From Bacteroides acidifaciens (GTDB lineage Bacteria; Bacteroidota; Bacteroidia; Bacteroidales; Bacteroidaceae): a stretch of 64,000 nt of DNA. Location of the stretch: assembly GCF_024623065.1 (NCBI RefSeq), contig NZ_JANJZR010000013.1:16374-80373 (forward strand). Reading direction: 5' to 3'. Positions 3,914-8,090 of this stretch are shown here, one piece after another. The position numbers and the translations under genes were made by a program. Below the pieces are notes generated by a model. It had not been told where the DNA came from, searched no databases, and was given only the letters and a program-made list of their open reading frames with translations. Numbering within the stretch: position 1 is the stretch's first letter; the number at the start of each line of letters is the position of its first letter.

Positions 3914-3943
3914 TTTGCGTTTAACAGAAAAGTATTACTTTTG
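3914..3943 (+). promoter_or_regulatory. Bacteroides-type promoter for the phe/tyr operon (TTTG-N18-TACTTTTG)
   Basis: TTTG at 3914-3917 and TACTTTTG (TAnnTTTG) at 3936-3943, about 40 bp upstream of a leader ORF. Confidence 0.6.
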
Positions 3944-3982
3944 TCCCAAGAATTAAAAACCAAAGCAAAAAACAAAGTTCGT

Positions 3983-4069
3983 ATGAAATCATTTACTTAT
4001 GCATATTACTTCTTTTTTTACTTTTACTTTAGCAGCAAAGTAGAGCGGGAGTTTGTATGTATCAAGTGA
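3983..4069 (+). CDS. Phe/Tyr-rich leader peptide MKSFTYAYYFFFYFYFSSKVEREFVCIK (candidate transcription attenuator)
   Basis: 28-codon ORF; 11 of residues 4-16 are Phe or Tyr; followed by an intrinsic terminator and then pheA. Confidence 0.85.
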   Translation: MKSFTYAYYFFFYFYFSSKVEREFVCIK

Positions 4070-4109
4070 CAGTGATGCTTAAGGACAGAATAAAGAAATC
4101 AATCATATG

Positions 4110-4142
4110 AATCCCGCTCCGATACGGACGCGGGATTTTTTT
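4110..4142 (+). terminator. Attenuator terminator upstream of pheA
   Basis: AATCCCGC(4110-4117)/GCGGGATT(4130-4137), continued inward by TCCG/CGGA around an ATA loop, then a T run. Confidence 0.85.
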
Positions 4143-4161: not shown

Positions 4162-5010
4162 ATGAAAAAGATAGCTATTCAAGGAACACTCGGCTCTTAT
4201 CACGACATCGCCGCACACAAATATTTCGAAGGAGAAGAGATAGAGCTAATCTGTTGCGCCACCTTCGAAGACGTGTTTGCCTCCATACGCAGAGACAGCC
4301 AGGTCATCGGGATGCTCGCCATCGAGAATACGATTGCGGGCAGCTTGCTGCACAACAACGAGTTGCTGAGGCAGAGCGGCACGCAGATTATCGGCGAATA
4401 CAAACTGCGCATCTCGCACAGCTTCGTCTGCCTGCCCGACGAAAGTTGGGAAGACCTGACGGAAGTCAACTCCCACCCCATCGCCCTGATGCAGTGCCGC
4501 GATTTCCTGAACCAGCACCCGCAACTGAAAGTGGTGGAAGGCGAAGACACGGCACGCAGCGCAGAGACCATCAAGAACGGAAATCTGAAAGGACACGCCG
4601 CCATCTGCTCCAAAGCGGCCGCCGAACGCTACGGAATGAAAGTGTTGCAGGAGGGCATCGAGACAAACAAGCACAACTTCACCCGTTTCCTCGTTGTTGC
4701 CGACCCTTGGCAGGCGGACGAACTGCGGCAGCACCACGCCTCCACTGCCAACAAGGCAAACATGGTGTTCACACTGCCGCACACGGAAGGCAGCCTGTCA
4801 CAAGTGCTCTCCATCCTCTCTTTCTACAACATCAACCTCACCAAGATACAGTCGTTGCCTATTATCGGACGTGAATGGGAATATCAGTTTTATGTCGACG
4901 TGACCTTCAACGACTATCTGAGATATAAGCAATCCATTGCGGCAATCACTCCATTAACCAAAGAACTTAAATTATTAGGCGAATATGCAGAAGGAAAATC
5001 AAACGTATAA
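4162..5010 (+). CDS. pheA: Prephenate dehydratase with C-terminal ACT domain
   Basis: GTLGSYHDIAAHKYF start, substrate-binding block, and ACT-like region EGSLSQVLSILSFYNINLTKIQSLPI. Confidence 0.93.
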   Translation: MKKIAIQGTLGSYHDIAAHKYFEGEEIELICCATFEDVFASIRRDSQVIGMLAIENTIAGSLLHNNELLRQSGTQIIGEYKLRISHSFVCLPDESWEDLTEVNSHPIALMQCRDFLNQHPQLKVVEGEDTARSAETIKNGNLKGHAAICSKAAAERYGMKVLQEGIETNKHNFTRFLVVADPWQADELRQHHASTANKANMVFTLPHTEGSLSQVLSILSFYNINLTKIQSLPIIGREWEYQFYVDVTFNDYLRYKQSIAAITPLTKELKLLGEYAEGKSNV

Positions 5011-6163
5011 AATCGCTCCTGCCGAACGGCTGGCAAGTGTAAGCGAATACTACTTCTCAAAGAAGCTGAAAGAGGTAGCACAGATGAATGCGGAAGGAAA
5101 AGACGTTATCAGCCTGGGTATCGGCAGTCCCGATATGCCGCCTTCGGAAAAGACCATCGAAACATTATGCAACAATGCCCACGATCCGAACGGACACGGT
5201 TATCAGCCGTATGTGGGTATCCCCGAACTCCGCAAAGGTTTCGCTGCCTGGTATCAACGCTGGTACGGTGTGGAACTGAACCCAAATACGGAGATACAAC
5301 CGTTGATTGGCTCGAAAGAGGGGATTCTTCATGTCACACTGGCTTTTGTCAATCCGGGCGAACAGGTATTGGTTCCGAATCCGGGCTATCCTACTTATAC
5401 TTCTTTGAGCAAGATACTCGGTGCGGAAGTCGTCAATTATGATTTGAAAGAGGATGACGGCTGGATGCCCGACTTTGAAGCACTGGAGAATATGGATTTA
5501 AGCCGCGTGAAGCTGATGTGGACGAACTATCCGAATATGCCGACAGGCGCAAACGCAACTCCCGAACTATATGAACGTCTCGTCGACTTTGCCCGCCGGA
5601 AGAATATTGTGATTGTGAATGATAATCCGTACAGCTTTATCCTGAACGAAAAGCCTATCAGTATTCTGAGTGTGCCGGGAGCCAAAGAATGCTGCATCGA
5701 GTTCAATTCTATGAGCAAGAGCCACAATATGCCAGGCTGGCGTATCGGAATGTTAGCTTCGAACGCTGAATTCGTACAATGGATACTGAAGGTAAAAAGC
5801 AACATAGACAGCGGAATGTTCCGTGCCATGCAACTGGCAGCTGCAACAGCTCTGGAAGCAGAAGCAGACTGGTATGAAGGCAATAACGAAAACTACCGCA
5901 ACCGTCGTCACCTCGCTGGTGAGATTATGAAAACATTGGGATGCACCTACGATGAAAAGCAAGTGGGAATGTTCCTTTGGGGGAAAATTCCCGCATCTTG
6001 CAAGGATGTAGAGGAACTGACGGAAAAAGTGCTGCACGAAGCAAGAGTGTTCATCACTCCGGGATTTATTTTCGGCAGTAACGGAGCAAGATATATCCGT
6101 ATCTCCCTCTGTTGCAAGGATGCAAAATTAGCGGAAGCACTGGAAAGAATCAAAAGGATCTAG
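4985..6163 (+). CDS. Class I/II pyridoxal-phosphate aminotransferase
   Basis: ISLGIGSPDMPP, NYPNMPTGA, EFNSMSKSHNMPGWRIG; overlaps pheA by 26 bp. Confidence 0.9.
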   Translation: MQKENQTYKIAPAERLASVSEYYFSKKLKEVAQMNAEGKDVISLGIGSPDMPPSEKTIETLCNNAHDPNGHGYQPYVGIPELRKGFAAWYQRWYGVELNPNTEIQPLIGSKEGILHVTLAFVNPGEQVLVPNPGYPTYTSLSKILGAEVVNYDLKEDDGWMPDFEALENMDLSRVKLMWTNYPNMPTGANATPELYERLVDFARRKNIVIVNDNPYSFILNEKPISILSVPGAKECCIEFNSMSKSHNMPGWRIGMLASNAEFVQWILKVKSNIDSGMFRAMQLAAATALEAEADWYEGNNENYRNRRHLAGEIMKTLGCTYDEKQVGMFLWGKIPASCKDVEELTEKVLHEARVFITPGFIFGSNGARYIRISLCCKDAKLAEALERIKRI

Positions 6164-6216: not shown

Positions 6217-7278
6217 ATGGAACTCGAATCAATTTTATTACCGGGCATTGAAACTAAAAGACCGATTGTCATTGCCGGCCCATGTAGTGCAGAGACTGAA
6301 GAACAAGTGATGGATACAGCCAAGCAATTGGCAGCTAAAGGACAAAAGATATTCCGCGCAGGAATCTGGAAACCGCGCACCAAACCGGGTGGTTTCGAAG
6401 GAGTCGGCGTAGAGGGTCTTGCTTGGCTGAAAGAGGTGAAGAAAGAAACGGGAATGTATGTTTCTACCGAAGTAGCAACAGCCAAACACGTCTACGAAGC
6501 CTTGAAGGCTGGTATCGATATTCTTTGGGTAGGCGCACGCACCACCGCCAACCCTTTCGCCGTACAGGAAATAGCTGACGCACTAAAAGGTGTTGACATC
6601 CCTGTATTAGTCAAGAATCCCGTTAATCCGGATCTTGAACTATGGATTGGAGCTTTGGAACGTATCAACAACGCAGGTCTGAAACGTTTGGGTGCTATCC
6701 ATCGCGGTTTCAGTAGCTACGATAAGAAGATTTACCGTAATCTTCCTCAATGGCACATTCCTATCGAACTGCGCCGTCGCATTCCTAATCTCCCGATTTT
6801 CTGTGACCCGAGCCACATCGGCGGCAAACGTGAACTGATAGCTCCTCTTTGCCAACAAGCGATGGACTTGAATTTCGACGGTCTGATTGTAGAAAGCCAC
6901 TGCAATCCTGATTGTGCGTGGAGCGATGCCTCGCAACAGGTGACGCCGGATGTGCTCGACTACATCCTCAATCTACTGGTTATCCGTACCGAAACTCAAT
7001 CTACAGAAAACTTGAGCCTGTTGCGTAAACAGATTGACGAATGTGACGACAACATCATCCAAGAACTAGCCAAGAGAATGCGTGTCGCCCGCGAAATCGG
7101 TACATTCAAGAAAGAGCACAACATCACTGTACTACAAGCCGGACGTTACAATGAAATTCTCGAGAAACGCGGAATGCAGGGAGAGCAATGTGGTATGGAT
7201 GCAGAATTTATGAAGAAAATCTTCGAAGCTATCCACGAAGAATCTGTTCGTCAGCAGATGGAAATTATCAATAAGTAG
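6217..7278 (+). CDS. Bifunctional 3-deoxy-7-phosphoheptulonate synthase / chorismate mutase type II
   Basis: VIAGPCSAET, FRAGIWKPRTKPGGFEG, FCDPSHIGG; C-terminal chorismate mutase helix LLRKQIDECDDNIIQELAKRMRVAREIG. Confidence 0.94.
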   Translation: MELESILLPGIETKRPIVIAGPCSAETEEQVMDTAKQLAAKGQKIFRAGIWKPRTKPGGFEGVGVEGLAWLKEVKKETGMYVSTEVATAKHVYEALKAGIDILWVGARTTANPFAVQEIADALKGVDIPVLVKNPVNPDLELWIGALERINNAGLKRLGAIHRGFSSYDKKIYRNLPQWHIPIELRRRIPNLPIFCDPSHIGGKRELIAPLCQQAMDLNFDGLIVESHCNPDCAWSDASQQVTPDVLDYILNLLVIRTETQSTENLSLLRKQIDECDDNIIQELAKRMRVAREIGTFKKEHNITVLQAGRYNEILEKRGMQGEQCGMDAEFMKKIFEAIHEESVRQQMEIINK

Positions 7279-7316: not shown

Positions 7317-8090
7317 ATGAGAATATTAATCCTCGGAGCCGGAAAAATGGGCTCCTTCTTTACTGATATTTTGAGCTTTCAACACGAGACGGCCGTATAT
7401 GACGTCAACCCGCACCAATTGCGTTTTGTCTACAACACGTATCGTTTCACTACATTAGAGGAGATTAAGGAATTCGAACCGGAACTGGTTATCAATGCCG
7501 TTACAGTAAAGTACACGTTGGATGCTTTCCGCAACGTATTGCCCGTACTGCCCAAAGACTGTATCATCAGTGACATTGCCTCTGTAAAAACAGGACTGAA
7601 GAAGTTTTATGAAGAAAGCGGTTTCCGTTATGTTTCCAGTCACCCGATGTTTGGTCCTACTTTCGCCAGTCTCAGCAACTTGAGCAGCGAGAATGCGATC
7701 ATCATCAGTGAAGGCGACCATTTGGGAAAGATATTCTTCAAAGACCTCTATCAGACGTTGCGACTGAATATTTTCGAATATACATTCGACGAGCATGACG
7801 AGACAGTAGCCTACTCGCTTTCCATTCCGTTCGTCTCGACTTTCGTATTTGCTGCCGTAATGAAACATCAGGAAGCTCCGGGAACTACGTTCAAGAAACA
7901 TATGGCTATCGCCAAAGGTCTGCTGAGTGAAGACGACTACCTGCTTCAGGAAATCCTGTTCAATCCACGTACTCCGGGACAAGTGACCAATATCCGTACC
8001 GAGCTGAAAAACCTTCTCGAAATCATCGAGAATAAGGACGCGGAAGGGATGAAAAAGTATCTGACGAAGATTCGGGAGAAGATTAGATAA
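7317..8090 (+). CDS. tyrA: Prephenate dehydrogenase
   Basis: N-terminal Rossmann motif LILGAGKMGSFF; VSSHPMFGPTFASL; last gene of the aromatic amino acid operon. Confidence 0.9.
   Translation: MRILILGAGKMGSFFTDILSFQHETAVYDVNPHQLRFVYNTYRFTTLEEIKEFEPELVINAVTVKYTLDAFRNVLPVLPKDCIISDIASVKTGLKKFYEESGFRYVSSHPMFGPTFASLSNLSSENAIIISEGDHLGKIFFKDLYQTLRLNIFEYTFDEHDETVAYSLSIPFVSTFVFAAVMKHQEAPGTTFKKHMAIAKGLLSEDDYLLQEILFNPRTPGQVTNIRTELKNLLEIIENKDAEGMKKYLTKIREKIR

Follow-up and report, generated by a model that had tools for sequence, protein, structure and literature searches.

Phe_leader (RF01859), which precedes pheA and pheST in gamma-proteobacteria, combines a Phe-rich leader peptide, competing helices and a terminator upstream of its target pheA. 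Computational surveys of attenuation have reportedly been carried out by the Lyubetsky/Seliverstov group. In the phylum to which the locus studied here belongs, a device of the same kind is Bacteroid-trp (RF01692), whose codons are consecutive Trp codons. The Leu/phe leader of Lactococcus lactis (RF01743, PMC2864571) comes from a different phylum, and its likeness to the present element lies in its name, which includes Phe. For Flavobacterium psychrophilum, the part of the source drawn on here describes transcripts and structured elements before hisG and before pheA, the latter conserved, and speaks of 'strong clues' for leader-peptide attenuation of amino-acid operons (PMC9723704); the Phe/Tyr codons and the switch of the pheA element are not spelt out in that part. 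Leader-like sORFs were noted in B. theta, and the pheA leader is not named in the portion of that report used here (PMC7366714). A 2013 survey, confined to the four Rfam amino-acid leaders that had been analysed by then, concluded that such attenuators may originate in gamma-proteobacteria (PMC3766115). No bench-tested Bacteroides leader peptide was found in the open-access literature.

The DNA analysed here is a 64,000-nt stretch of Bacteroides acidifaciens (the window), in which the region before pheA very probably encodes a trp/phe-type, ribosome-mediated transcription attenuator that controls the operon pheA-aminotransferase-DAHP synthase/chorismate mutase-tyrA. When the window was searched against Rfam, no family reached its cut-off, and neither the T-box model nor RF01743 gave a match. 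Phe_leader scored 19.3 bits in the window against a cut-off of 55; the locus shares with that family a Phe-codon leader, competing helices, a terminator and pheA, but its leader mixes Tyr with Phe and its operon adds tyrA and DAHP synthase. In the window, Bacteroid-trp, which serves another amino acid and another operon, was not matched; its match, with 110.5 bits, lies in this genome's trp operon (L218, 2833-2977). The sequence-only reading had called experimentally characterised cases scarce in Bacteroidetes, a statement that has to be qualified in view of the RF01692 precedent in the same genome and of the leader elements suggested in F. psychrophilum (PMC9723704). With these two precedents, the element would be one more attenuator of a known kind. 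Leader attenuation is already known in the phylum, and what is notable here is the mixture of Phe and Tyr codons and the unusually deep conservation.

Layout of the locus and the operon

A gap of 300 nt separates a TPR gene from pheA and, as read directly from the letters, holds a promoter, the leader ORF and a terminator (Table 1). The promoter claimed by the sequence-only reading was found in the window as TTTG and TAnnTTTG elements, the latter of which precedes the leader by 19-42 nt in 73 of the 74 related loci, and transcription is expected to start near 3950. The gene assignments of the operon were confirmed by Pfam/NCBIfam, and the gene order is kept in the relatives, the closest of which, judged by pheA, are Bacteroides species. 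Of the 80 related loci, 72 have all four operon genes in this order on one strand; 7 further loci yielded the first two or three genes only, in unchanged order, and in the remaining one the order of the four genes holds and a TPR match is on the opposite strand. The listed ORF of the aminotransferase begins within the 3' end of pheA (26-nt overlap, 4985-5010), which hints at translational coupling.

Table 1. Features of the pheA leader region and operon, in positions of the window
Feature	Position	Strand	Basis or remark
Bacteroides-type promoter	3914..3943	+	-33 TTTG at 3914-3917; -7 TAnnTTTG, TACTTTTG, at 3936-3943
Leader ORF, 28 codons, MKSFTYAYYFFFYFYFSSKVEREFVCIK	3983..4069	+	ATG...TGA, read directly; conserved in relatives
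Segment 1, 5' side of protector hairpin, built of Phe/Tyr codons	3988..4028	+	Fold
Control codons, 11 Phe/Tyr codons in 13	3992..4030	+	Residues 4-16 of leader
Segment 2, 3' side of 1:2 hairpin	4034..4076	+	Fold; co-variation
Antiterminator core in segment 2, GAGCGGGA	4043-4050	+	Exact complement of segment 3
Intrinsic terminator	4110..4142	+	20 nt before pheA; 3:4 energy -17.3 kcal/mol
Segment 3, TCCCGCTC	4112..4119	+	Pairs with segment 2 (antiterminator) or segment 4 (terminator)
Terminator outer stem, AATCCCGC with GCGGGATT (segment 4)	4110-4117 with 4130-4137		
Terminator inner stem	4118-4120 with 4126-4128		
T run of terminator	4136-4142		
pheA, prephenate dehydratase (PF00800)	4162..5010	+	Pfam
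Class I/II aminotransferase (PF00155)	4985..6163	+	Pfam/NCBIfam
DAHP synthase fused to chorismate mutase (PF00793 + PF01817)	6217..7278	+	Pfam/NCBIfam
tyrA-like prephenate dehydrogenase (PF02153)	7317..8090	+	Pfam/NCBIfam

The Phe/Tyr leader and its distribution

In keeping with an attenuator, codons for products of the operon, Phe and Tyr, are clustered in a short leader ORF, and this ORF has never been annotated as a gene. The sequence-only reading had described it as 28 codons with 11 aromatic residues at positions 4-16, and both letters and coordinates proved correct, as they did for the terminator and the exact complement between 4043-4050 and 4112-4119. An ATG ORF with at least 9 Phe/Tyr in 14 residues was absent from all 3,600 of the 400-nt control windows taken from related genomes; the control windows mostly contained 0-4 Phe/Tyr in 14 residues, while the leader contains 11. 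Runs of at least 8 TWY codons were found at three sites in the 4.85-Mb genome, one of which is the pheA leader, and the remaining two sit opposite long ORFs.

Both Phe and Tyr codons are present in 94 of the 96 leaders. From these codons we infer that a single leader may sense starvation for both amino acids, and their mixture makes such dual sensing testable. Across the leaders, Trp accounts for 4.3% of the non-Phe/Tyr residues in the run (19/438), which is about three to four times its usual share, and is absent from the run in the window; Trp as a third input to the leader is suggestive only. Trp codons within or beside the Phe/Tyr run were seen in L139, L144, L150, L155, L124, L126, L130 and others.

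The close set comprised 81 loci, that is, 80 pheA relatives and the window, and 78 of them extend far enough upstream. The leader was found upstream of pheA in 77 of these 78 Bacteroides-type loci, with the consensus peptide MxxFxYxYYFFFYFYFSxKVEREFVCxK. In L020 (84-503) the codon run and the helices are kept and the start-codon stretch is lost, either by deletion or by an assembly error. In the order and class, an aromatic leader followed by a terminator precedes pheA in 76 of 79 Bacteroidales genomes and in 27 of 29 genomes of other Bacteroidia, so that conservation of the leader codons, which the sequence-only reading had proposed as a check, is upheld in more than 100 genomes of the order and class. 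An intrinsic terminator lies between the leader ORF and the first gene in nearly all leader-bearing loci, as an attenuator demands. Five loci inside the class are without a leader; in two such losses, L172 and L187, there is no leader-like gap and other coding sequence appears to reach pheA. Outside the class Bacteroidia, a leader was present in 4 of 11 loci and missing from the other 7.

Since most of the sampled Bacteroidia outside Bacteroidales carry the leader, the F. psychrophilum pheA element is likely to be this leader as it occurs in a different order. The Bacteroidia-wide distribution does not fit the suggested gamma-proteobacterial origin of attenuators (PMC3766115). The element reaches the cut-off of no Rfam family and yet stands before pheA in most of the sampled Bacteroidia, among them relatives of the bacteria that dominate the human gut.

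Competing helices and the position of the ribosome

Folding of the leader RNA, which is more stable than its shuffled versions (z -4.3), revealed a hairpin that had been missed in the sequence-only reading: the Phe/Tyr run pairs with segment 2, and this 1:2 hairpin completes the classical 1:2 / 2:3 / 3:4 layout of the trp type. In 94% of the loci, segment 2 pairs with upstream sequence at P>0.5. Among the relatives, the actual order of the codons favours 1:2, with -17.2 kcal/mol against -14.3 kcal/mol in codon-permuted leaders (mean rank 0.18, P=2e-16, an optimistic value because the rows are related). Double changes in 1:2 were counted in 21 cells where 10.9 were expected, a number matched in 1 of 500 shuffles, which is modest co-variation among close relatives. 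A protector hairpin spanning the control codons is thus indicated by the fold and the codon order, with co-variation adding modestly.

The two alternative helices vary together. When the leader of each of 108 loci was paired with the 5' arm of its own terminator, the mean energy was -13.5 kcal/mol, compared with -9.2 kcal/mol for the arms of other species, and none of 10,000 permutations came near this difference (sd 0.22). In a comparison with the eight nearest PheA relatives having a different arm, the own arm was the stronger in 91 of 102 cases. Segments 2, 3 and 4 change jointly, giving such pairs as GCGGGA:TCCCGC, GTGGGA:TCCCAC, ACGGGA:TCCCGT, GCAGGA:TCCTGC and GGTGAGG:CCTCACC. In the close alignment A1, 98.1% of the terminator cells are paired, and changes on both sides were found in 4 of the 11 pairs. 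The covariation of 2:3 with 3:4 that the sequence-only reading had asked for was borne out by these permutation tests, and so was the exclusion of the 3:4 terminator by the 2:3 antiterminator that marks an attenuator.

Between the last aromatic codon and the start of segment 2 there is a median of 14 nt (IQR 12-16, sd 3.9), whereas the distance of the stop codon to segment 2 is three times as variable (sd 12.0). A ribosome footprint extends about 12 nt 3' of the codon being read (PMC4833913); in the window, with Phe16 in the A site, the RNA would be free from about 4042, and segment 2 begins at 4043. A ribosome at the control codons would leave segment 2 free, according to both this ribosome-sized spacing of 14 nt and the simulated stalls described below. 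Relative to the leader, segment 2 was found in all three reading frames (29, 24 and 17 loci), and the stop codon precedes it in 26 loci, lies within it in 16 and follows it in 54. In L068 the frame of the tail has moved by one base, which altered the peptide and retained the helix. The tail KVEREFVC was considered as a selected peptide and rejected on the basis of L068 and of the frames across the order, which indicate that the RNA is the conserved entity. Judged by these comparisons, what is conserved past the Phe/Tyr run is RNA and not peptide.

Step-by-step folds were computed for several positions of the ribosome. When the leader carried no ribosome, RNA of full length adopted the 1:2 hairpin together with the terminator. 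When a stall was placed at Tyr9, Phe12 or Phe16, 2:3 was the most favourable fold over 4121-4133, until segment 4 emerges, and with a ribosome at the stop codon the terminator alone formed. Once completed, the terminator surpassed the antiterminator in stability even in the presence of a stalled ribosome, and the switch must therefore be kinetic. The decision of the trp attenuator is likewise held to be kinetic.

In the mechanism that we propose, transcription would proceed from about 3950 and a ribosome would start on the 28-codon leader. With ample charged Phe- and Tyr-tRNA, the ribosome would clear the aromatic run and either mask segment 2 or leave, upon which 1:2 would form; with segment 2 occupied, segments 3 and 4 would pair and RNA polymerase would halt at about 4142. 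If charged Phe- or Tyr-tRNA ran short, the ribosome would stall in the run and open segment 1, and segment 2, lying just beyond the edge of the stalled ribosome, would take segment 3 before segment 4 exists; the resulting 2:3 helix would allow readthrough into pheA. Such an RNA switch would most likely turn the operon on only under Phe/Tyr shortage. Translation of the leader, stalling on either kind of codon, termination in vivo and a response of the operon are what this mechanism predicts. The locus offers a ready test system for ribosome-controlled termination and transcription-translation coupling, both of which are little studied in the phylum.

Other explanations and other amino-acid leaders

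The FYFYF motif is nearly invariant within Bacteroidaceae, as might be expected if the aromatic nascent peptide arrested the ribosome in the manner of TnaC or SecM, responding to free Phe/Tyr or to another small molecule, with the helices switching afterwards. Arrest peptides retain specific residues, but in the order and class the Phe/Tyr sequence, the residue count and the flanking parts are free to vary and it is the aromatic content and the spacing that stay; furthermore, a high level of the free amino acid would need to cause termination, which is the opposite of TnaC. We consider such an arrest very unlikely.

The presence of a terminator/antiterminator pair would also suit a ligand-binding riboswitch or a protein-bound attenuator of the TRAP-like or T-box-like kind, with the ORF as a by-product. 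The probability of this is extremely small, since conservation tracks the codons and the ribosome spacing, there is no conserved aptamer beyond segments 1-4, and no Rfam riboswitch family, nor that of the T-box, matches the window at its cut-off. That the leader product is conserved and hydrophobic could point to a functional small hydrophobic peptide followed by a constitutive terminator; however, the tail is lost, frame-shifted or shortened in many species in which the RNA pairing survives, and segment 2 co-varies with the terminator, which leaves this explanation a negligible chance. The ribosome-mediated attenuator, which the sequence-only reading had put forward, is supported by comparison through the conserved leader codons and the co-varying helices.

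Further candidate leaders were observed before other amino-acid operons. In the same genome, a Trp leader, MRRMLVNTYWWWRPLQLRQS, lies upstream of 3042 in L218 (contig C184) and is followed by a strong terminator and then trpB, and an Ile/Val-rich leader, MNMLHTSINLAVLHIIRVVVVPSRA, precedes ilvD in L212 (contig C88) with a terminator-like hairpin and no Rfam match. A scan of this genome for runs of His codons gave no leader, as the contig breaks off a short way before hisG (L217), where the hisG terminator is visible; His leaders such as MKNIVAHHHHHHPDE were found before hisG in all of 19 Bacteroides genomes (L222-L240). The pheA leader and the trp, ilv and his leaders of this genome or genus form a set, which suggests that gut Bacteroides control amino-acid synthesis generally in this way. 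We give an even chance to the wider proposal that leader attenuation is ancestral for amino-acid synthesis in Bacteroidia and that the pheA leader is a pooled sensor of Phe and Tyr, joined by Trp in some lineages, so that a single RNA would control entry to the entire aromatic pathway. Before thrA in L219 there is also a possible Thr/Met leader, MMMKYYPHTVTSMCTMTLRG, which lacks a clear terminator.
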